Assembly (NCBI RefSeq): GCF_017301615.1
Contig: NZ_CP059066.1
Coordinates: forward strand, 2,492,888-2,556,887
Source: Koleobacter methoxysyntrophicus
GTDB taxonomy: Bacteria; Bacillota; Thermosediminibacteria; Koleobacterales; Koleobacteraceae
Reading direction: 5' to 3'
DNA: 64,000 nt
Shown here: positions 41,787-53,380 of the stretch, piece after piece
How positions within the stretch are numbered: position 1 is the stretch's first letter
Layout of the letters: the number at the start of each line of letters is the position of its first letter
Notes under the pieces: generated by a model
Seen by the model: only the letters and a program-made list of their open reading frames with translations
What the model was told of the DNA's origin: nothing
Databases searched by the model: none
Position numbers and translations under genes: made by a program

Positions 41787-42224
41787 TTGGGTAGAGATCC
41801 TTATAAGATGAAAATGTTTGAAAAAGATCCGTATGCTAAAAAAACGGAAATTATCGGGGAATTAGTAGTGGTACTAGATGGTACTTTTGATAATAGGGGT
41901 TTAGAATTGATTATTCCTGCATCAAGATGCCTCCAGAGAAGTGAGATTCATGAGTTAATTTTAACAGATGAAGATTCTGGGCCCGGAAGTAAGGTTAATA
42001 AAATAGCCTATATAGGATTTTTCGAAGTTAAACAAGGTGGTGTAATACTAAAAGGAGATAAAGTCTTTATAGGGAATCAATATATTGGTGAAGTTACCGG
42101 ATATGACGAAACCCATATGCCCAATCATTTAAATATTGTTATTTTCGGTAAACCGAGGATTTCGGGTTTGGAAAGAGGTTTGGAGCTAAGAGATAAAGTA
42201 ATTATAAAAAAAGAAAAAGAATAA
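41787..42224 (+). CDS. Conserved protein of unknown function (DUF6917-like)
   Basis: This encodes 145 residues, soluble, beta-rich. Notable segments are 'IIGELVVVLDGTFDNRGLEL', 'SRCLQRSEIHELILTDEDSG', 'GDKVFIGNQYIGEVTGYDE' and 'PNHLNIVIFGKPRISGLERG'. I believe it belongs to the family labelled DUF6917 but cannot confirm this and know no function. The start is TTG 41787 after GGAGGTGAT. It is the first gene of the B12/PLP cluster, directly downstream of operator copy 1. This suggests a structural or substrate-handling role in that pathway. Confidence 0.6.
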   Translation: MGRDPYKMKMFEKDPYAKKTEIIGELVVVLDGTFDNRGLELIIPASRCLQRSEIHELILTDEDSGPGSKVNKIAYIGFFEVKQGGVILKGDKVFIGNQYIGEVTGYDETHMPNHLNIVIFGKPRISGLERGLELRDKVIIKKEKE

Positions 42225-42314
42225 TAAACGAATTAGATATGAGAATTAAACAATTTGCTGTGGAAAAAATATAGTTAGAAAATATTTTCAGCAGCAATGA
42301 AAGGGGGTGCTAAA

Positions 42315-42776
42315 ATGTCCTTTGAAAAAAAAATAAAAGAAATGGGTATTAATATACCAGAAGCTCCGAAACCTGTAGCAGCATACGTTTCCGCAGTTAA
42401 AATCGATAATTACATTTATACTGCCGGACAAATCCCTTTTGTAGACGGGGAGTTAAAATATAAAGGAAAACTAGGTAAAGACCTTTCAATAGAAGAGGGT
42501 TATGAAGCCGCAAAGATTTGTGCAATTAACTGTTTAGGTGCAATTAAATCTTTAATAGGCAGTCTTGATAATATAGAAAGGGTCGTTAAGGTTACCGGTT
42601 TTGTAAACAGTGCAGGAGGTTTTAACCAACAACCAAAGGTGGTGAATGGAGCTTCTGAATTTTTAGGTCAGGTTTTTGGTGAAACAGGCAGTCACGCCAG
42701 ATCGGCAGTAGGAGTTAATGAACTGCCTATGGATGCCGCCGTAGAAATTGAGATGATTGTAAAAGTAAAAGATTAA
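42315..42776 (+). CDS. Rid family (YjgF/RidA-like) enamine/imine deaminase
   Basis: This encodes 153 residues. 'IYTAGQIPFVDGELKYKGKL' and 'GSHARSAVGVNELPMDAAVE' match the longer Rid subfamily; the Arg (in HARSAV) and the final Glu (in VEIE) that bind the substrate carboxylate and activate water are kept. Rid proteins hydrolyse reactive imines released by PLP or flavin enzymes. Its place beside a PLP enzyme and FAD oxidoreductases suggests it clears or channels an imine made by them. I chose ATG 42315, after AAAGGGGG. Confidence 0.85.
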   Translation: MSFEKKIKEMGINIPEAPKPVAAYVSAVKIDNYIYTAGQIPFVDGELKYKGKLGKDLSIEEGYEAAKICAINCLGAIKSLIGSLDNIERVVKVTGFVNSAGGFNQQPKVVNGASEFLGQVFGETGSHARSAVGVNELPMDAAVEIEMIVKVKD

Positions 42777-42797: not shown

Positions 42798-44264
42798 ATG
42801 GCAAAGTTTAAATTAAAGTATCAAATGTATAAATCCTTACAAGAGAACATACCAAATATTTATGCTGAAGCTAGAAAAGCAGCAGAAGAACTAGGAATAC
42901 CGGCTGAATTAAAAGGCAAGTTTGGGTTAACGGGAGCTATTTCAGGTTGTCCTGCTCCTCTTAGGAAAGATATTCTCGAATACTCAGAAAAAGGTGGAAA
43001 AGAAGTTATACCCCTTGCGAAGCTTGTTGAGGAGATAAGGGGTCTTGTAAAGGAAGTATATGGCGATGAGTATGATGCTGCACCTGTTAACACATGCGAA
43101 GCAGGTTTGTGGGTTACCTTTGATACCCTTTTTACACCTCCGATGCAAGGTAGGGGTGACAACTATCAAGCAAGATATATAGCTTTATATGAAAAACATT
43201 TACACCATCAAGGAGGATATGGCAGACCTTTCCCACCAAGATTTAAGGATATTCTGGCAGATAGAGGGTCAACTGCGGGAGAGTTAGGTTTCTATGGTAA
43301 AAGACAGAACAATTTGAGTGTATATTACGCACCTTTAGAAGGAGCTTGTTACGATGTGCATGGAATCAAGTATCACCCGGTTCCCCTTTTAACAAAAGTA
43401 GATCCAGAAGCATCGGGTGAAAAAATCTCACTAATCGCAGAAAGGAACGCTACTATTTTGACGGGTATTACTTCTCTAGGCTATGATACACCGGGTTATG
43501 GATATGGAGTAAAGGATGAAGATGGAACACCTGTGATGCAGAAAATTTTAGCAAATATAGCAAAAGATTTTGATGTCCCCTATGTTGTAGATAATGCCTG
43601 GGGAGTTCCTTTTATAGGTCATGATATCAGAAAATCCGGGGCCGATGTAGTTATTTATAGCATGGATAAGGCCTCAGGTGCAACAACTAGCGGTTTGATT
43701 ATCGGCAAAGAGGAAGTAATGGTTCCCATTAGGAGAGCGTTAGGTATGCATGGTGACAGATGGGGAACAACAGCTTCCTATGGAAAGGCAGCATACGTAA
43801 CGCAGGACCCCGGTAAAGAAGCCTTATTGGGGCAAGTAGCTGCATTAAAAGCATTAAAAGATAAACCCGAAATATTAACTAAACCCGTTGATGACCTTTA
43901 TAAAATAGTAAAAGAAGAATTTGATCAAATTCATCCAAAAATTAAAGAAGGGCTAATAATCACAAAATCTTATAATTCAACGGCTGTTGAAGTTAACTAT
44001 GAAAATACATGGAAAAATGGAGAATTAGGATTCCCAATTTTCTCAATTGAAGATATGTATGCCGGAACAAATATACTCCAATCGGGAATGGGTCAAATGG
44101 GGGTCATTCCAACCATTGCTTATGATGCAAATATCTATATTTCACCCGGCCTTGGTACTACCGATGAAAATGGTCAATTGATTGAAGATAGGGCGCGTTA
44201 TTGTATAAAGGCTTTGGTAAAACTTATGGAAATTGTAGGAAAGTACAGCGGGTATCTAGATTAA
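42798..44264 (+). CDS. Fold-type-I PLP-dependent enzyme, substrate unknown
   Basis: This encodes 488 residues. The PLP pocket is visible: D265 in 'VPYVVDNAWGVPF' (pyridine N partner) and K291 in 'IYSMDKASGATTSG' (Schiff base). The long N-terminal part (1-200) is rich in Gly, His and Cys ('LTGAISGCPAPLRK', 'NTCEAGLWVTFDTLF', 'HHQGGYGRPFPPRF'). It does not look like a common aminotransferase, SelA, tryptophanase or Cys/Met lyase I can recall. It starts 21 bp after the Rid gene, with AAAGGAGGAG upstream, so the two are coupled. A lyase, racemase or aminotransferase role is possible. Confidence 0.72.
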   Translation: MAKFKLKYQMYKSLQENIPNIYAEARKAAEELGIPAELKGKFGLTGAISGCPAPLRKDILEYSEKGGKEVIPLAKLVEEIRGLVKEVYGDEYDAAPVNTCEAGLWVTFDTLFTPPMQGRGDNYQARYIALYEKHLHHQGGYGRPFPPRFKDILADRGSTAGELGFYGKRQNNLSVYYAPLEGACYDVHGIKYHPVPLLTKVDPEASGEKISLIAERNATILTGITSLGYDTPGYGYGVKDEDGTPVMQKILANIAKDFDVPYVVDNAWGVPFIGHDIRKSGADVVIYSMDKASGATTSGLIIGKEEVMVPIRRALGMHGDRWGTTASYGKAAYVTQDPGKEALLGQVAALKALKDKPEILTKPVDDLYKIVKEEFDQIHPKIKEGLIITKSYNSTAVEVNYENTWKNGELGFPIFSIEDMYAGTNILQSGMGQMGVIPTIAYDANIYISPGLGTTDENGQLIEDRARYCIKALVKLMEIVGKYSGYLD

Positions 44265-44407
44265 ATTAATCTAAATAAAAGGTGCAGCCGAAGCGATACT
44301 TAATAATTGAATGCTTATCGTATCTAGATCAAAGGGGGGATCCCTCCCCTTTAATTGTAAACTATACCCTAAAGGTTCAAAATAATATAAGGAGGTGCCT
44401 ATACAAG

Positions 44408-45688
44408 GTGGCAAAAGCAGTTGTTATCGGTGGCGGATGGTCGGGTTGTGCTGCCGCTCTCGCCTCAGCTAAGATGGGATGTGATGTGATTCTGCTAGAA
44501 AGGACTGATATGCTGCTTGGCACAGGGTTGGTTGGCGGGATAATGAGAAATAACGGAAGATTTACTGCTACTGAAGAAATGATTGCCATGGGCGGTGGAG
44601 AATTATTTGAAATCGCTGATTCAGTAGCAAGACATAAAAATATTGAATTCCCCGGTCATAAACATGCCACCCTTTATGATGTAGCTAAAATTGAACCTGC
44701 AGTTAAAAAGCTTTTAATTGACAGAGGAATCGATGTTCGTCTTATAACAAGGGCAAAGGATGTAAAAATGAACGGAAATAGAATCGTATCTGTATTAACT
44801 GATGAAGGAGATGAAATAGAAGGTGATATTTTTATAGAAACTACAGGGACGGCAGGGCCTATGGGTAACTGTTCGAAATATGGAAATGGATGTGCAATGT
44901 GTATAATTCGCTGCCCCAGTTATGGGCCAAGGGTCAGTATTGCAGCAAAAGCCGGAGTAAAAGAGTTGATGGCCAAAAAATCAGATGGTTCTGTTGGTGC
45001 AATGAGCGGATCCTGTAAATTATTGAAAGAATCCCTTTCCGATGATATTGTAGAAAAATTAAATACCAGGGGGGTAGCAGTTATCCCCATACCTCAAGAA
45101 TTGCAAAAAGCCGATGCTTTGAGTCAGAAAGCTTGTCAGCAGTATGCATTAAAAGAATTTGCCGAAAATGTTATTCTCCTTGATACTGGACATGCAAAAT
45201 TAATGAGTCCATATTATCCGTTAGACAAATTACGAAGGATTCCGGGATTTGAAAATGCCAGATACGAAGATCCCTATGCAGGAAACCTGGGGAATTCTAT
45301 GAGATACTTCTCTATTTCTCCCAGAAATAATAAACTTCAAACCGAAGGTGTTGACAACCTGTTATGTGCAGGGGAAAAAGCAGGTCCTCTGGTAGGTCAC
45401 ACTGAGGCGATTGTTACAGGCACCCTTGCCGGTTATAATGCAGCTAGATTGGCCTTTGGAAAAGAACCCGTGGAAATACCGGTTGAACTGGCAGTTGGTG
45501 ATGCGATTTCTCATGTTAGAGAACAGATGAACACCCCAGAGGGAATTGCTAAGAAATATACATTCTCCGGGTCAGTATATTTTGAAAGAATGAAGGAAAA
45601 GGGCTTATATACTACAGATATAAATGAAATAAAGAAACGAGTTGAAAAAGCCGGTATGACAAACTTCTTTGAAAAAAAATTCATTTAA
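44408..45688 (+). CDS. FAD-dependent oxidoreductase with Fe-S motif (copy A)
   Basis: This encodes about 426 residues. FAD binding is by 'VVIGGGWSGCAAALASAKMG' and 'LLERTDMLLGTGLVGGI' at the N-terminus and 'GEKAGPLVGHTEAIVTG' near the C-terminus. A central cysteine group, 'GNCSKYGNGCAMCIIRCPSY', suggests a 4Fe-4S cluster. The family resembles the FAD_oxidored group. A longer in-frame start at 44282 is rejected: GTG 44408 follows GGAGGTG. A paralogue with the same motifs is at 52109. It likely oxidises an amino or hydroxy acid of the pathway; the substrate is unknown. Confidence 0.8.
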   Translation: MAKAVVIGGGWSGCAAALASAKMGCDVILLERTDMLLGTGLVGGIMRNNGRFTATEEMIAMGGGELFEIADSVARHKNIEFPGHKHATLYDVAKIEPAVKKLLIDRGIDVRLITRAKDVKMNGNRIVSVLTDEGDEIEGDIFIETTGTAGPMGNCSKYGNGCAMCIIRCPSYGPRVSIAAKAGVKELMAKKSDGSVGAMSGSCKLLKESLSDDIVEKLNTRGVAVIPIPQELQKADALSQKACQQYALKEFAENVILLDTGHAKLMSPYYPLDKLRRIPGFENARYEDPYAGNLGNSMRYFSISPRNNKLQTEGVDNLLCAGEKAGPLVGHTEAIVTGTLAGYNAARLAFGKEPVEIPVELAVGDAISHVREQMNTPEGIAKKYTFSGSVYFERMKEKGLYTTDINEIKKRVEKAGMTNFFEKKFI

Positions 45689-45810: not shown

Positions 45811-46299
45811 ATGATCATAGAAAAACTATGGGATTGTAGGTGTTTAAATAAAGAAGAAAACTGTCCGTGTATCTTGGCCGTGCTTAATACTTGCCCTTAC
45901 TGCGATTTTTTAAAAGGCAATGAATTATGCAACTGTAATTGGGAAGGGTATTGCCCATTATTAAAATTAAAGTGGGAGGACATAAAAGACCTAAGCCGGG
46001 GTGATAACCGGCTTGAAATATTAAAAAAGGTATTCATCTCAAAAAATTGTCTAATGGTTGTCGTGAAAATACCCGAATTAAGTAATTTAGATATAAACCC
46101 TGGTAATTCTATAAATATTTATGGTGAAAAAGACGGCATGTTATATGAATTAAAGGGAATTGTTTTAAATTCTCTGGTACCGTACAGTACTATTGCAATA
46201 GGTTTTGACGTAAGCAATCCCAATAATAGAATTATTTTAGACAATTTTTGTATTAAATCTTTTAAAAAAAAGAACCTTAACTGGATAAAAATAGATTGA
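45811..46299 (+). CDS. Cysteine-rich, truncated PyrK-like protein (copy A)
   Basis: This encodes 162 residues. The N-terminal 60 residues hold ten cysteines ('CRCLNKEENCPCILAVLNTC', 'CNCNWEGYCPLL') in the same spacing as the 51139 product. The rest (70-160) resembles only the flavin-binding beta-barrel of that protein; the NAD-binding domain and the C-terminal 2Fe-2S motif are missing. There is no sign of a frameshift, so it may be a short electron carrier rather than a broken gene. It follows FAD oxidoreductase copy A. Confidence 0.65.
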   Translation: MIIEKLWDCRCLNKEENCPCILAVLNTCPYCDFLKGNELCNCNWEGYCPLLKLKWEDIKDLSRGDNRLEILKKVFISKNCLMVVVKIPELSNLDINPGNSINIYGEKDGMLYELKGIVLNSLVPYSTIAIGFDVSNPNNRIILDNFCIKSFKKKNLNWIKID

Positions 46300-46412: not shown

Positions 46413-47156
46413 ATGGAACAATTAAAAGGGAATCAGGAATATTATACTTTAAAGATAATCGGGGATTCTTTATCACCCATTGGTTCAGGATTGATAAGTG
46501 AAGAATTAAAATCATTGGGATTCAATATTAGTGAAGCTACGGTTGGTAGAATTTTAAGGGAGCTAGATATAAAAGGTTACACTGAAAAGGTAGGATTCAG
46601 GGGGAGGATTTTGACCGAGAAGGGCAAAGAAAAGCTTAAGACTATAGAACAGGAAAACGAAATAAAGCAGTATGGTAATGAGTTTATCAATCTACTTAAA
46701 GTAAGCAGAAAAGATGAACTGCTGGATATTCTAGTTGCCCGTAGAGCTATTGAAAGGGAGTTGGCGAGATTAGCGGCCATAAATGCAAAAGAAGCTGACA
46801 TTGAGGCCTTAGAAAAAATCGTTCAATCCCACGAAAGACATTTTGAAAACTTCATTACAGGAGCAAAGGACGATGTAGATTTTCATAAATTGATTGCCAA
46901 AATGGCAAAAAACAGGATCTTAGATGCTGCAATGGATTTAATCAGGCAGCACGGACAGCTTTCACCGGTTTTAGGCTACATTAGGAAAGAAGTTAAGAGC
47001 ACTGTTGTCTCAGACCATAAGAAAATATTAGAAGCAATAGCAAAAAGAGACCCTGATAAGGCAGAAAGGGCTATGGTGAGACATATAGAAAATCTCATTC
47101 AAGACGTAAATAGATACTGGGAAATTGCTGAATCTTATAATGATAAAAACGTTTAA
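46413..47156 (+). CDS. Transcriptional regulator: NrpR/HTH_12-type winged helix + FCD domain
   Basis: This encodes 247 residues. The N-terminus (1-75) 'LKIIGDSLSPIGSGLISEEL' with 'ISEATVGRILRELDIKGYTE' resembles the winged helix of NrpR and RNase R-type regulators rather than a GntR helix. The C-terminal part (95-240), with 'LVARRAIERELARLAA', 'DVDFHKLIAKMAKNRIL' and 'VSDHKKILEAIAKRDPDKAE', is an FCD ligand domain with its metal-binding Asp/His residues. It is the likely regulator of the surrounding cluster and a candidate binder of the CTCATC dyads at 41761 and 47180. Confidence 0.78.
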   Translation: MEQLKGNQEYYTLKIIGDSLSPIGSGLISEELKSLGFNISEATVGRILRELDIKGYTEKVGFRGRILTEKGKEKLKTIEQENEIKQYGNEFINLLKVSRKDELLDILVARRAIERELARLAAINAKEADIEALEKIVQSHERHFENFITGAKDDVDFHKLIAKMAKNRILDAAMDLIRQHGQLSPVLGYIRKEVKSTVVSDHKKILEAIAKRDPDKAERAMVRHIENLIQDVNRYWEIAESYNDKNV

Positions 47157-47212: not shown

Positions 47213-47458
47213 ATGAAAGATATATTGGAGAAGGTATTAGATGCTATTGATATGGAAACCTTTTTAATATGCAGAGATGAAGATGAAGGCAAGGGTTTGA
47301 TGCTTAAGTTAATGGAACAGTTGGGGTTTAAAGATACAAATATAGTTTTTATCGAACACAACGGTCCCGGGGCAAGGATTAGAGCCAGAGGATATATATA
47401 TAAACCCGGTGATAGTTATGGCTGGCTTAAAACAGATGAAGGGAGGAACGGCCAGTGA
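47213..47458 (+). CDS. Small subunit of a cobalamin-dependent aminomutase-like enzyme
   Basis: This encodes 81 residues. 'EGKGLMLKLMEQLGFKDTNI' and 'GPGARIRARGYIY' resemble the small alpha/beta dimerisation domain that precedes the B12 domain in OraE and KamE (pattern: helix, 'KKMGL..', then 'G.R....G.V'). Here that domain is a separate polypeptide. It overlaps the large subunit by 4 bp, so the two are translationally coupled. It is not similar to OraS. The assignment is inference from weak similarity and context. Confidence 0.55.
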   Translation: MKDILEKVLDAIDMETFLICRDEDEGKGLMLKLMEQLGFKDTNIVFIEHNGPGARIRARGYIYKPGDSYGWLKTDEGRNGQ

Positions 47459-49266
47459 AGAAAAAGGTTTTATTAGTACCTCTTGATCCCGTTCATGACA
47501 TTGGTCTTAAAATGATCAAGAGAGGCCTCGAAGAAGCAGGCCATAATGTGATTTTATTGCCACCTGATTATTCGCTGGAAGAAATAATTAACAGGATAAT
47601 CGAAACCAGGGTAGATACAGTTTTGATAAGCAGAACCCTCGGCTATGGAGTTGCAGAACTATTAGGCAGGTTTATAGACTTGGCTGATGCTGCAGGATTA
47701 AGGGACAAGGTAACCTTTGGAATCGGCGGTATGGCAATTACTCCAGAGCTGGCTGCTGAATTGGGTTTTGATGCTGGATTTGGGCCGGGAACTACAGTAG
47801 AAGAAGCCGTTGCCTTTGTAGAAGGAAGGGAATATGTCCCCGATAAGCAGCGTAATAAAAAGATTAAAAAAGACATGACCCAAAACTATGATTACAATTA
47901 CAAAAATGCAAGGATAGCTGAGTTACTAAATAAAATATCCCAGCAGATCCTGCACTGGGGAGAAGATAAAACATCTCCCGGAATTTTGAGGGCCCATATT
48001 AGGGAAAGAATATTGAACTCCCGTGATGAAAAAGAAGTTAAAGAATTAAAGCAGGAATATATGTCTTTTTGTGATGAGGCAGTTAAAAGTTTTTATTCAA
48101 AAGGGGAACTTAACAGCAAGACACGTTCTTTAACTCAAAGGGAAGTAAAAGCCCTAGAAGAATATGTAAAAGATGTTGAAGAACGAATGACCCTTAATAT
48201 AATTCAAAAAACAGAAAAAAACCCTTTGATATTCATTCAGTATGGAACAGGTTGCCCGTTTATGGATATAGCCCATATTAAACTTGCTGAGTCATGGGGA
48301 GCTGATGGGGTTGTCCACTTTGACCCTTCATGGGGAGCAAGAACAGAAGGCTTTTATGAGGGTTTTTTAAGCCATGAAGAGGACGGCTCGGTTATTACTT
48401 ATGAAAATCTCTCTAAAATAAAAGAATGTTTAAACAGGAATATCCTCTGGCAAGTGCGAGCTCACAGGGGAGTAAATACCCCGGAAACAGTAGTGCTTGC
48501 CGGTAACGCCGGAGCAGATTTAACGAAAATAAATATAGTTTATGGTTCTTTAGGGGGGGGGACTGATCCTGCCCGATTGACCATTGATGCTCTGGAAGCT
48601 ATAAAAATAGCAGCTAAATATAATCTACCTTTTGATGTGGTTACCAATGAAGAATTAAGCGGTGTTCCATCATACAAAGCCTTTGCCGGCATGCTTATTG
48701 TAGCTAACCTAGCCTTAGTTTTGGGAGCAAAACCTATTTTACAGCCATTATTCTGTTATTCACCCGAGGTTATGATCGGACGTCAAATGGAAGATAATTA
48801 TATTGATTTTAATGCAGCAAAAATTTATGCGTTGAGAAGTATAATTAATGCACCCATTTGGCCAGGAGCACCTATAGGGTTTTTAACCCATACTGAAGAT
48901 AGGGTTCAATCTTCGGTAACAACGGCGTTACATGCCGGTTTAGCTTCATCATTAAAGGTAGATGCCATTTCAATAGCATCTTCTGATGAAGCTTTTTCAG
49001 GGGGGCCTATAACAGGGGCATCAAGAATTGACACATTGAGAGCTACCCAGGAAGTTTTTAGATTCTTCGGTCATGCGGAAATTTCTCCGACAAACAAAGC
49101 CCAGGAATGGGCTGACGAATTGGTCGAAAGGATAGAAAAGGTATTAGTAGACGTTCTAAATAGAGGTGATTTTGTTCAGGCCTTATATGACGGTATTCTT
49201 GGCAATAGAGAAGAGGGGGCTTATCCTGGAAGGGCTGGTAGGAATACAATAATAAGAAAAAAATAG
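47455..49266 (+). CDS. Cobalamin-dependent aminomutase-like large subunit with N-terminal B12 domain
   Basis: This encodes 603 residues. The B12 domain (1-130) has D11-x-H14-x-x-G17, then S59, then GG at 91-92: the base-off/His-on pattern. 'DAGFGPGTT' recalls OraE. A helical linker (135-240) leads to a barrel (240-570) with 'SWGADGVVHFDPSWGARTEG', 'GSLGGGTDPARLTIDALEAI' and 'SSDEAFSGGPITGASRIDTL', aligning with the OraE/KamD barrel. In OraE the B12 domain is C-terminal. The PLP-binding lysine 11 residues after the B12 histidine in OraE/KamE is L25 here; K19 and K22 are nearby. The substrate is unknown. The start is GTG 47455. Confidence 0.72.
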   Translation: MKKKVLLVPLDPVHDIGLKMIKRGLEEAGHNVILLPPDYSLEEIINRIIETRVDTVLISRTLGYGVAELLGRFIDLADAAGLRDKVTFGIGGMAITPELAAELGFDAGFGPGTTVEEAVAFVEGREYVPDKQRNKKIKKDMTQNYDYNYKNARIAELLNKISQQILHWGEDKTSPGILRAHIRERILNSRDEKEVKELKQEYMSFCDEAVKSFYSKGELNSKTRSLTQREVKALEEYVKDVEERMTLNIIQKTEKNPLIFIQYGTGCPFMDIAHIKLAESWGADGVVHFDPSWGARTEGFYEGFLSHEEDGSVITYENLSKIKECLNRNILWQVRAHRGVNTPETVVLAGNAGADLTKINIVYGSLGGGTDPARLTIDALEAIKIAAKYNLPFDVVTNEELSGVPSYKAFAGMLIVANLALVLGAKPILQPLFCYSPEVMIGRQMEDNYIDFNAAKIYALRSIINAPIWPGAPIGFLTHTEDRVQSSVTTALHAGLASSLKVDAISIASSDEAFSGGPITGASRIDTLRATQEVFRFFGHAEISPTNKAQEWADELVERIEKVLVDVLNRGDFVQALYDGILGNREEGAYPGRAGRNTIIRKK

Positions 49267-49277
49267 GTGAAGAGACA

Positions 49278-50345
49278 ATGGTAAAAATTATTGGAATTGC
49301 AGGAACTGCAAAAAATACCGGTAAAACCACTACTACCACGGCTTTAATAGAAGAAATAAATAAAAGGGGTATGAATATCGGTATAACCAGTATCGGTTAT
49401 GATGGGGAAGAAATAGACAATGTTACAGGCTTGCCGAAACCGAGGATTAGGTTAAGGCAGGGTACTTTAGTGGCTATTTCTGAAAAATGTTTGAAAACAA
49501 GCAGTGCTGAAATTAAAATAATTGAAAAAACCAACCTTATTACACCCCTAGGTAAAATAATTGTCGGTAAAATCGTAGAGGATGGGCTGGTAGTGCTAGC
49601 AGGGCCAAATAAATCCAGGGATCTGAAAACAATAAACTGTATTTTAAAAGAAAAAAACTGCAATTTTATTATTGTTGATGGGGCTCTTAATAGATTGGCT
49701 CCCATGGTAGAAACTCATGGGATTATCCTTGCCACCGGTGCTGCCAGAAATCATGATATAAACTTACTGGCACGGGAGACAAAGGCAATAATAAATATCT
49801 TTGAATTAAACAAAATAGATAAAGCATTAAAAGATGTTAAATCTATCGTATTGCAAACCCGCAATAAGGGTATTAAGAGACTGAATTCCACTTCACTTAT
49901 AACTAAGGAAACAGCATCAGAAATCATCAATTATTATAATCAAACTGATAAAGTCGAATTTGTATATATTCCCGGAATAGTATCTGCAGAAATTCTTGAA
50001 GAGTTCATTGATAAAACAGCAAAAATTATTAGAGGCACAACAATAGTTTTAACAGACCCAATAAAACTTCTGGTTAGCGGTAATCCAATTCACATTAATA
50101 ATTTGATTGAAAAAGTCAGAACCCTAGGGGGCGATTTTGCTGTTACTAAAAATATTCCGGTTTTATGTGTTACCATAAACCCCTTTTATCCGGCCTATCG
50201 ATTTAATCATGAGACGTATTTTCCCGATTATGTTGATGCCGACATGTTAAAAAGAACAATGGAGAAATATATTGACATCCCTGTGATTAATGTTGTAAAA
50301 GAAGGTGCAGAAAAAATATTTAGTATTATTAAACAAGGAGGATAA
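49278..50345 (+). CDS. P-loop protein, probable mutase reactivase (KamB-like)
   Basis: This encodes 355 residues. Walker A is 'GIAGTAKNTGKTTTTTAL' near residue 10. 'NFIIVDGALNRLAPMVETHG' is a Walker B-like region. The C-terminal half is alpha/beta with no clear motif. As I recall, lysine 5,6-aminomutase needs an ATP-dependent reactivase (KamB with KamC) to remove damaged cobalamin; this protein resembles the KamB type. No KamC-like (MutS-like) partner is seen here. It begins 11 bp after the mutase gene. Confidence 0.65.
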   Translation: MVKIIGIAGTAKNTGKTTTTTALIEEINKRGMNIGITSIGYDGEEIDNVTGLPKPRIRLRQGTLVAISEKCLKTSSAEIKIIEKTNLITPLGKIIVGKIVEDGLVVLAGPNKSRDLKTINCILKEKNCNFIIVDGALNRLAPMVETHGIILATGAARNHDINLLARETKAIINIFELNKIDKALKDVKSIVLQTRNKGIKRLNSTSLITKETASEIINYYNQTDKVEFVYIPGIVSAEILEEFIDKTAKIIRGTTIVLTDPIKLLVSGNPIHINNLIEKVRTLGGDFAVTKNIPVLCVTINPFYPAYRFNHETYFPDYVDADMLKRTMEKYIDIPVINVVKEGAEKIFSIIKQGG

Positions 50346-51138: not shown

Positions 51139-52116
51139 ATGCTGCTTAATATTAAATGCATAGATGTCGGAACAAACTACTGCCCGTGTTATCTGGCGGA
51201 AATAGGCAATTGCCTGGTATGTTCTCATTTAAACGGGAAAGGGTGCGGAGATTGCAACTGGCAGGGGATATGTATTATGAATGATTTCTACTGGAATGGT
51301 AAAAGATCCGCGGAAGGACGAACAATCATAAGGACTGAAGAAGTATCAAAGAAGTTGATAGCAGATAATCTACTTTTATTGTCTGCCCAAATCCCTTCTC
51401 ATAAAGTAAAAGACTTTGTTCACCCCGGAACTTTTGTTTTTATAAAAAATGATAGTTTTCCAGACTTCTATGATGTTCCTACTTCAGTGATGGATGTTGA
51501 TGAAAAAAAACATATTCTACATTTTGCAATACAAATAGTCGGTCCCAAAACAAAAGCCCTATTAAAAGAAGAAAAGAAGATAACAATTAGGGGACCGTAC
51601 TGGAACGGAATATACGGAATAGAACATATAAAAACTCTAGAAAACGGCTACGTATTGATTATTACAAGGGGAATTTGTCAGGCTTCCGCTTTGCTCTTAA
51701 TAAAAAAACTGATTAATAACGATAATAAAGTTAAGGTATATATAGATCCGGGAAGTTTAGGAAGAATCTTCATAGGGGATTCCTTAAAAGAACTCGGTAT
51801 AACCGCTATAAAAACAGATATTACGAAAAAGGAAAAATTAAACGAAATCAAATCGGATATAGAAAATCAACCTTTCGACCTTATATACAGCGGTGGTGGA
51901 GACTTGCAGCATCTAATTATATTTAAAATAATAAAAGAAACGAAAAAAGAAGTACCCCTTATTGCAAGCAATAACAATCAAATATATTGCGGTGAAGGGA
52001 TTTGCGGAAGCTGTGCTGTGGAAAACTCTAAAGAAACCCATAGAGAAAGAATTTATTTGTGTAAGGCTCAGTTTGATTATACTACTTATGTGCAAAGGGG
52101 GTTTTATAATGGCTAA
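51139..52116 (+). CDS. Cysteine-rich PyrK-like FAD/NAD oxidoreductase (copy B)
   Basis: This encodes 325 residues. An N-terminal cysteine module (1-55: 'NYCPCYLAEIGNCLVC', 'CGDCNWQGIC') precedes a ferredoxin-reductase-like flavin barrel, an NAD domain, and a C-terminal 2Fe-2S motif 'CGEGICGSCAV' with a last Cys in 'YLCKAQF', as in PyrK. It could pass electrons between NAD(H) and the FAD oxidoreductase encoded next, with which it overlaps by 8 bp. The N-terminal module is shared only with the 45811 product in this window. Confidence 0.78.
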   Translation: MLLNIKCIDVGTNYCPCYLAEIGNCLVCSHLNGKGCGDCNWQGICIMNDFYWNGKRSAEGRTIIRTEEVSKKLIADNLLLLSAQIPSHKVKDFVHPGTFVFIKNDSFPDFYDVPTSVMDVDEKKHILHFAIQIVGPKTKALLKEEKKITIRGPYWNGIYGIEHIKTLENGYVLIITRGICQASALLLIKKLINNDNKVKVYIDPGSLGRIFIGDSLKELGITAIKTDITKKEKLNEIKSDIENQPFDLIYSGGGDLQHLIIFKIIKETKKEVPLIASNNNQIYCGEGICGSCAVENSKETHRERIYLCKAQFDYTTYVQRGFYNG

Positions 52117-53380
52117 GGTGATTATTATCGGGGGAGGTTGGGCCGGATGTGCTGCAGCAATTACGGCAATAAAAAATAAGGCAGAGGTAGTATTAATTGA
52201 AAAAACCGATATGTTATTAGGTTGTGGCCTTGTTGGGGGAATTATGAGAAATAACGGGAGGTTCACTGCCACAGAGGAAGCGATTATAATGGGAGCAGGA
52301 GAACTATTTGAACTAGCAGATTCATTATCCCGACACAAGAATATAGATTTTCCCGGGCATTCGCATGCCAGCCTTTATGATGTTTTAAAAATTGAACCTA
52401 CAGTTAGAAACTTATTGGTTAAAAAGGGAGTAAATATATTATTTGAAACCAGGGCAGTAGATGTAGAAATGGATAAAAACAAGATAACAGGGATTCTTAT
52501 ATCCGATGATAGGCTGATAAAAGGAGATGTATTTATTGAAACCACCGGTTCTTCAGGCCCTATGGGGAATTGTTTAAAATACGGCAATGGATGTGCTATG
52601 TGCATCCAGAGGTGTCCCGCATACGGCCCAAGGGTCAGTATTAGCGAGAAAGCCGGGGGTAAGGACGTGATAGGGAAAAGAAGTTCAGATAGTTTTGGAG
52701 CGATGAGCGGTTCCTGTAAACTCAATAAAGATTCCCTGGGTGAAGAGATACGAAATAAATTAAACAAAGAAGGGGTAGTTATAATACCTTTAGATAAAAA
52801 GAACATAAACAAGCAAAAGCTATCAATGAAAGTGTGTCAACAATATGCCATTAATGAGTATGCAGAAAATCTAATTCTTTTGGATACAGGGCATGCGAAA
52901 TTAATGACTTCATACCATTCCTTAGCTGCATTAAGGAATATTAAGGGTTTTGAAAATGTTAGATATGAAGACCCTTATGCGGGAAGCAAAGGAAATTCCA
53001 TCAGGTATATGTCTATGGCATTAAGGGATAATACCATGAAAGTTGATGGTATCCCAAACCTCTTCTGTGCAGGTGAAAAATCAGGCCCCTTTGTGGGTCA
53101 TACCGAAGCTATTGTAACAGGTTCACTTGCCGGGTATAATAGTATTAGGTACCTGTACGGGGAAAAAACCCTGGAATTACCCAGGACAACTGCAATAGGA
53201 GATATCATAGCATATGTAAATGAACAGATGCGAACAGATAGTGGTTTATGTAACAGATATACCTTTGCAGGAGCTTTATATTTTGAAAGAATGAAGAAAT
53301 TGAATTTATATACTACCAATTTAGACGTGATAAAAGATAGGGTTTATAAAGAAGGCTTAATCGATGTTTTTATGTGTTAA
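52109..53380 (+). CDS. FAD-dependent oxidoreductase with Fe-S motif (copy B)
   Basis: This encodes 423 residues, closely similar throughout to copy A at 44408: 'VIIIGGGWAGCAAAITAIKN', 'DMLLGCGLVGGIMRNNGRFT', 'CLKYGNGCAMCIQRCPAYGP' and 'GAMSGSCKL' are shared almost unchanged. The frame extends upstream to 51962, but ATG 52109 has AAAGGGGG before it and matches the start of copy A. It is coupled to the PyrK-like gene, so the pair probably forms one complex. Confidence 0.82.
   Translation: MAKVIIIGGGWAGCAAAITAIKNKAEVVLIEKTDMLLGCGLVGGIMRNNGRFTATEEAIIMGAGELFELADSLSRHKNIDFPGHSHASLYDVLKIEPTVRNLLVKKGVNILFETRAVDVEMDKNKITGILISDDRLIKGDVFIETTGSSGPMGNCLKYGNGCAMCIQRCPAYGPRVSISEKAGGKDVIGKRSSDSFGAMSGSCKLNKDSLGEEIRNKLNKEGVVIIPLDKKNINKQKLSMKVCQQYAINEYAENLILLDTGHAKLMTSYHSLAALRNIKGFENVRYEDPYAGSKGNSIRYMSMALRDNTMKVDGIPNLFCAGEKSGPFVGHTEAIVTGSLAGYNSIRYLYGEKTLELPRTTAIGDIIAYVNEQMRTDSGLCNRYTFAGALYFERMKKLNLYTTNLDVIKDRVYKEGLIDVFMC

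Follow-up and report, generated by a model that had tools for sequence, protein, structure and literature searches.

A mutase-like protein with a B12 domain ahead of a KamD-like barrel and no PLP-anchoring lysine, in a conserved operon of Koleobacter methoxysyntrophicus

Coupled mutase and small-subunit genes

The window, by which we mean the whole 64,000-nucleotide stretch of Koleobacter methoxysyntrophicus DNA analysed here (contig NZ_CP059066.1), carries a gene for a B12 mutase-like protein directly behind a small ORF and ahead of a gene for a KamB-like protein (Table 1). The stop codon of the small ORF overlaps the start codon of the mutase gene (GTGA), an AGGAGG lies upstream, and the two genes are translationally coupled. 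The earlier note on this DNA left out the small ORF, which is part of the system; of 109 loci, 103 have a homologue of it next to the mutase gene and in the same orientation.

Table 1. Features at the mutase locus, with positions in the window and the basis of each assignment; fractions are the number of loci with the neighbour among 80 named loci.
Feature	Position	Strand	Basis
DUF6917 protein	41787..42224	+	44/80 loci
RidA-type imine deaminase	42297..42776	+	35/80 loci
Separate fold-type-I PLP enzyme with its own lysine, K291	42798..44264	+	61/80 loci
FAD-dependent oxidoreductase (GidA-like)	44282..45688	+	47/80 loci
FCD-domain regulator	46413..47156	+	43/80 loci
Small subunit, 81 aa, stand-alone KamE N-terminal-domain-like	47213..47458	+	Translation, fold, profile, synteny
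B12 mutase-like protein, 603 aa	47455..49266	+	GTG start; ORF, coordinates and strand confirmed
B12-binding Rossmann domain (residues 1–125)	47455..47829	+	Pfam, 1y80 fold match, conservation
Codon of L25, at the OraE/KamE PLP lysine position	47527..47529	+	H14+11
Helical region (residues 148–245), equivalent of the KamD N-terminal helices	47896..48189	+	Secondary structure; residues 148–603 against KamD 10–503
KamD-like TIM barrel (residues 250–545)	48202..49089	+	Fold match, conservation
D290, replacing KamD PLP-phosphate Arg184	48322..48324	+	Three alignment modes; D in 91/91
R338, probably replacing KamD Ser238	48466..48468	+	Profile alignment and one of three MAFFT modes
K358 (OraE His182 position) to Y363 (KamD Tyr263 position)	48526..48543	+	Both 91/91
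KamB-like reactivase (lysine 5,6-aminomutase reactivase subunit family)	49278..50345	+	NF052386, 249.1 bits, cut-off 210; 55/80 loci

Related genomes yielded 28 more full-length homologues of the mutase, with about 50–78% identity, and 80 loci were kept from a GTDB genome scan, some of them the same as these 28. The 80 loci span Thermoanaerobacterales, Tepidanaerobacter, Sporomusa, Desulfosporosinus, Heliobacterium, Ca. Formimonas, Halobacteroidaceae, Atribacteria, Thermotogota, Verrucomicrobia, Delongbacteria and Anaerolineae. Of the 109 family members collected, 91 are distinct, and residue counts were made on the 91. A PF09043 hit in genome G067 was rejected as a relative because it proved to be a chemoreceptor, and a tblastn search of the plasmid collection gave hits to the B12 domain only. 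No description of the mutase family was found in the open literature, to which the search was confined.

Residues 5–119 of the mutase match the Pfam B12-binding family (59.7 bits; cut-off 32.1), and residues 1–125 match corrinoid domains, the best being 1y80 with a Z-score of 17.9 over 120 residues. The structural model was built with AlphaFold2 on a 29-row alignment; it is cofactor-free, with a mean pLDDT of 83 and several barrel loops at low confidence. Its residues 148–603 superpose on residues 10–503 of KamD from lysine 5,6-aminomutase with Z 30.6 (rmsd 3.4–3.8 over 390–392 residues), the best match among solved structures, and the C-terminal tail to residue 603 matches KamD too. For the barrel, GlmE of glutamate mutase ranks second (Z 25.1 and 24.8), with OraE at 24.1. 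The barrel profile matched KamD at 89% over 406 columns, a modest result with one-against-one E-values, and GlmE at an uninformative hhalign probability of 0.3%. The NCBIfam models Lys_5_6_beta and ornith_mutase_E scored the mutase at 50.8 bits (cut-off 280) and 41.3 bits (cut-off 800), respectively. The glutamate mutase E family (PF06368), searched against the mutase's own genome, gave a list of hits from which the mutase gene was absent; several genomes hold a PF06368 gene and the mutase gene together. Invariant stretches of the barrel are QYGTGCP, HFDPxW, WxVRxHRG, K358/Y363, GTDPxR and DE512.

The best fold matches of the small-ORF model (pLDDT 88) are to the N-terminal domain of KamE (1xrs_B with Z 8.3 and an rmsd of 1.3 over 51 residues, 8t0v_D with Z 8.9), along with residues 510–587 of OraE (Z 7.9); the next unrelated chain scores 6.7. 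Its Foldseek E-values are weak (0.01), and its profile matches KamE N-terminal domains at 90% over the matching stretch. Across 49 sequences D10, D13, E15, R57, R59, Y69 and W71 are invariant.

The earlier note had placed the B12 domain at the N-terminus and an OraE/KamD-like barrel at the C-terminus, the reverse of OraE, and this order holds in all 91 distinct relatives. Relative to OraE the domains are rightly called permuted. Seen in full, KamE and KamD have been split and re-fused: the KamE N-terminal domain forms an ORF of its own, and the B12 domain of KamE is fused in front of KamD. Because the upstream 81-residue ORF folds like the KamE N-terminal domain, ORFs 47213–47458 and 47455–49266 between them contain the full domain set of lysine 5,6-aminomutase. 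An N-terminal B12 domain has a precedent among B12 mutases in the fused isobutyryl-CoA mutase IcmF, in which the barrel is likewise C-terminal; IcmF differs in having a G-protein domain between the two and a CoA-binding barrel, and it gives only a weak fold match with the mutase.

B12 helix and PLP site

The B12 motif of the mutase reads D11-P12-V13-H14-D15-I16-G17 (47485–47505), followed by S59 and G91-G92. The residues are those given in the earlier note, but the spacing D11xH14 is not, as the Asp stands at His-3 rather than at His-2 as in DxHxxG. DPVHD is invariant in the 91 sequences (family form DPVHD(I/V/A)(G/A)), and so are the His and the GG pair; the Ser is present in 82 and the Gly is missing in six. 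Since the motif is DxxHxxG and these six relatives lack the Gly, cofactor binding could differ.

OraE and KamE hold PLP through a lysine 11 residues after the motif His, as the earlier note stated, and Lys stands at this position in 13 of 13 OraE and 9 of 9 KamE sequences from the related genomes. In the mutase this position is L25, as had been noted, and the column holds L in 88 relatives, M, V or F in three and K in none. With lysine in 0/91 here and in 22/22 OraE and KamE sequences, its absence is a trait of the family and not a matter of chance. K19 and K22 lie where the earlier note put them. K22 was rejected as a PLP lysine because K is found in only 46 of the 91 (otherwise R 19, N 11, A 10), and 32 relatives have no lysine at all in residues 21–29. 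K19 is a less likely PLP lysine although it is invariant, as it occupies the position of the Lys in GlmS and methylmalonyl-CoA mutase, enzymes without PLP. Along the helix the residues follow the short pattern HxxGxK...L, as they do in these non-PLP B12 enzymes.

Changes extend to the barrel. In KamD, the PLP phosphate is contacted by Arg184, Gly187-Gln188-Ser189 and Arg268, Ser238 faces the ring nitrogen, Asn299 the phenol oxygen, and Tyr263 stacks on the ring (PMC3958899). All of these contacts are invariant in 24 of 24 KamD sequences, and in the mutase family only the stacking Tyr263 is kept, as Y363. In three MAFFT modes and a profile alignment, Arg184 is replaced by an invariant Asp (D290) and Arg268 by Gly or Ala at residue 368. 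The GQS loop is not kept: the three MAFFT modes place WGA there, and in the profile alignment nine residues are deleted between the conserved anchors GAD and TEGF. The Ser238 position is less sure: the profile alignment and a single MAFFT mode put R338 (91/91) there, and the other two modes leave a gap. K358 lies five residues N-terminal of Y363, where OraE has His182, a ligand of the substrate carboxylate (PMC3958899). It is one of few near-invariant barrel lysines (K358 91/91, K408 90/91); the invariant charged barrel residues are R335, H337, R338, K358, R374, D290, E400, D511 and E512. C434, opposite KamD Glu341, was set aside because the OraE alignment is inconsistent there.

Judged by these alignments, the loss of the cofactor site goes beyond the lysine: most of the PLP pocket is changed, and the charge is reversed at the phosphate site. 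This lends good support to the suggestion of the earlier note that PLP is not bound in the OraE/KamE manner, the lysine being missing in every relative and most barrel contacts gone. A conserved lysine in an equivalent place, or the standard OraE order, was looked for in the 91 distinct relatives, and neither was found.

By fold and subunits, the mutase and its small subunit are a sister of KamDE and OraSE. With lysine 5,6-aminomutase (1xrs, 8t0v, 9q1a) the system shares full-length KamD helices and barrel, the KamE N-terminal domain, a KamE-type B12 domain with DAGFGPGT, and a KamB gene; it differs in the fusion of the B12 domain ahead of KamD, the KamE N-terminal domain as an ORF of its own, the missing PLP lysine, the replaced PLP-phosphate residues and the DxxHxxG motif. 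D-ornithine 4,5-aminomutase OraS/OraE (3kow, 3kp0, 3kp1) has the same barrel fold, a B12 domain, the conserved Tyr and a counterpart of the small ORF in OraE 510–587, but the mutase reverses its domain order and has neither an equivalent of Lys629 nor the RTxGQS motif. Because the lysine and the PLP-phosphate site are both absent, the mutase is not to be filed as KamDE or OraSE. Glutamate mutase GlmE/GlmS resembles it in barrel fold (Z 25), in the standard B12-helix spacing without the lysine insert and in having no PLP, and differs in a barrel without profile-level similarity, in the mutase domains lying on one chain and in the extra KamE-like subunit.

Conserved operon

The operon with the mutase pair is conserved over many lineages. 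The fold-type-I PLP enzyme is the commonest neighbour beside the small subunit, and its conservation is equally strong (57–84% identity); K291 is invariant, and likeness to SelA/Cys-Met enzymes is found only around that lysine. The proposal in the earlier note that the mutase might borrow PLP chemistry from its neighbour gained no positive support: the neighbour has its own lysine, nothing points to a site shared by the two, and the stretch covered around the Atribacteria locus L078 has an unrelated PLP lyase family instead. For DUF6917, a family of unknown function on which no paper was found in the open literature, its regular place in the operon gives a first pathway context. About 25 loci include a permease of ~460 aa (e.g. 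L105:2246-3634) without a Pfam or NCBIfam match, which may carry the substrate of the pathway; L105 and L099 each have two permease copies flanking the operon. An Rfam scan of the window from 40 to 56 kb gave no match, and no cobalamin riboswitch was seen there.

Further FAD-related genes lie nearby. A second GidA-like FAD oxidoreductase is encoded at 51962–53380, so that this gene and the one at 44282–45688 flank the mutase; both are also present in L037, L038, L040, L042 and L066, among other loci that have one only. A 325-residue ORF (51139–52116) matches a DHOD-like FAD/NAD protein family in full, and a 162-residue ORF (45811–46299), which matches only the first part of that family, looks like a truncated duplicate.

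Proposed chemistry and pathway

Our preferred reading, held with moderate confidence, is that the pair serves amino-acid catabolism as an AdoCbl radical mutase or eliminase with aminomutase architecture, which has lost PLP and would hold its substrate directly. We infer the use of AdoCbl from the KamD/KamE ancestry and the KamB gene, and PLP independence, reaction type and kind of substrate are likewise inferred. In the proposed mechanism, the 5'-deoxyadenosyl radical would abstract hydrogen from a substrate, acidic or an amino acid, that the nine invariant charged residues listed above hold directly in the barrel, and a carbon-skeleton shift, or an elimination or 1,2-shift, would follow without PLP. 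The KamB-like protein would renew damaged cofactor, and the separate PLP enzyme and RidA would then receive the product and release ammonia. The radical chemistry on an amino acid is thus probably different from that of lysine 5,6-aminomutase, and the different rearrangement considered in the earlier note is plausible.

The main rival is that the protein is a PLP/B12 aminomutase after all, with PLP anchored to K358 or K408 of the barrel and the PLP phosphate bound by R335, R338 and R374. The near-invariance of both lysines, the retention of Y363 and the place of K358 five residues before this stacking Tyr, at the substrate-contacting His of OraE, would suit such a site. We nevertheless consider it unlikely: the canonical phosphate Arg is an invariant Asp, neither Arg268 nor the GQS loop is conserved, and a role in carboxylate binding suits K358 at least equally well. 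Rather less probable is a specific form of the preferred reading, a glutamate-mutase-like carbon-skeleton mutase of an amino dicarboxylic acid. The rank of GlmE as second-best barrel match, a B12-helix spacing like that of GlmS and unlike that of KamE, and the many invariant arginines point this way; against it stand the negligible GlmE profile probability, the failure of PF06368 to find the mutase gene in its own genome, a KamE-like partner ORF without counterpart in GlmES, and the several genomes that have both genes. That the protein is a corrinoid protein for methyl transfer or regulation, without radical chemistry, appears improbable; its B12 domain does resemble the corrinoid methyltransfer proteins 1y80, MtgC and MttC, and the motif Asp is shifted, but the KamD-type barrel, the KamE-type partner and the KamB gene favour AdoCbl radical chemistry. 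Finally, the frequency and conservation of the neighbouring PLP enzyme could suggest that it supplies an external aldimine or other PLP adduct on which the mutase acts, but this is very improbable given the lost PLP-phosphate site of the barrel, the D-cysteine-desulfhydrase-family PLP enzyme found in its place in the stretch covered at L078 and the fact that operon partners usually have a pathway in common, not a cofactor, and no precedent for it is known.

Both known B12/PLP aminomutases are considered to require PLP as the carrier of the migrating nitrogen. A widespread sister family with all of their domains but no PLP site offers nature's own comparison, both for the contribution of PLP and for the way a B12 domain is positioned without a lysine tether. 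The family points to an undescribed amino-acid degradation pathway common to Clostridia, Negativicutes, Heliobacteria, Atribacteria, Thermotogota, Verrucomicrobia and Anaerolineae.

As to the substrate of the proposed PLP-independent radical mutase, we tentatively suggest diaminopimelate or a related diamino acid, a rather unlikely reading in which the mutase would open its catabolism by rearranging the seven-carbon skeleton, and PLP lyases would then cut the rearranged skeleton into small oxo acids, for instance 2-oxobutyrate. This suggestion is based on a diaminopimelate dehydrogenase and epimerase immediately in front of the pair at L078 and L096, on an epimerase in L097 and a dehydrogenase in L111, and on a decarboxylase after the pair in Verrucomicrobia together with the methylcitrate-cycle genes of L112. 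The Thermotogota locus L096 encodes, in order, a racemase-family protein, a sarcosine-oxidase-alpha-like protein, an FAD oxidoreductase, the permease, diaminopimelate dehydrogenase (296.8 bits, cut-off 180.6), diaminopimelate epimerase (241.5 bits, cut-off 114.7), the small subunit, the mutase and KamB. The order in L078 is the D-cysteine-desulfhydrase-family lyase, homologues of the dehydrogenase and epimerase, the small subunit, the mutase and KamB. Repeated in the operon in two phyla, the dehydrogenase–epimerase pair is less likely to be there by chance than a single neighbour. The epimerase near the mutase pair is the sole copy in the L096 and L097 genomes and may also serve lysine synthesis, and LysA (diaminopimelate decarboxylase), which lies directly 3' of the mutase in Verrucomicrobia, may be a bystander. 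In the Verrucomicrobia contig L112 (148–7741), genes for PrpB, PrpC, PrpD and an AceE-like E1, which scores well under the AceE cut-off, lie ahead of those for the PLP enzyme and the small subunit. This PrpBCD context was seen in one contig, the other Verrucomicrobia contigs ending too early, and its methylcitrate-cycle genes hint at 2-oxobutyrate and propionyl-CoA as products.
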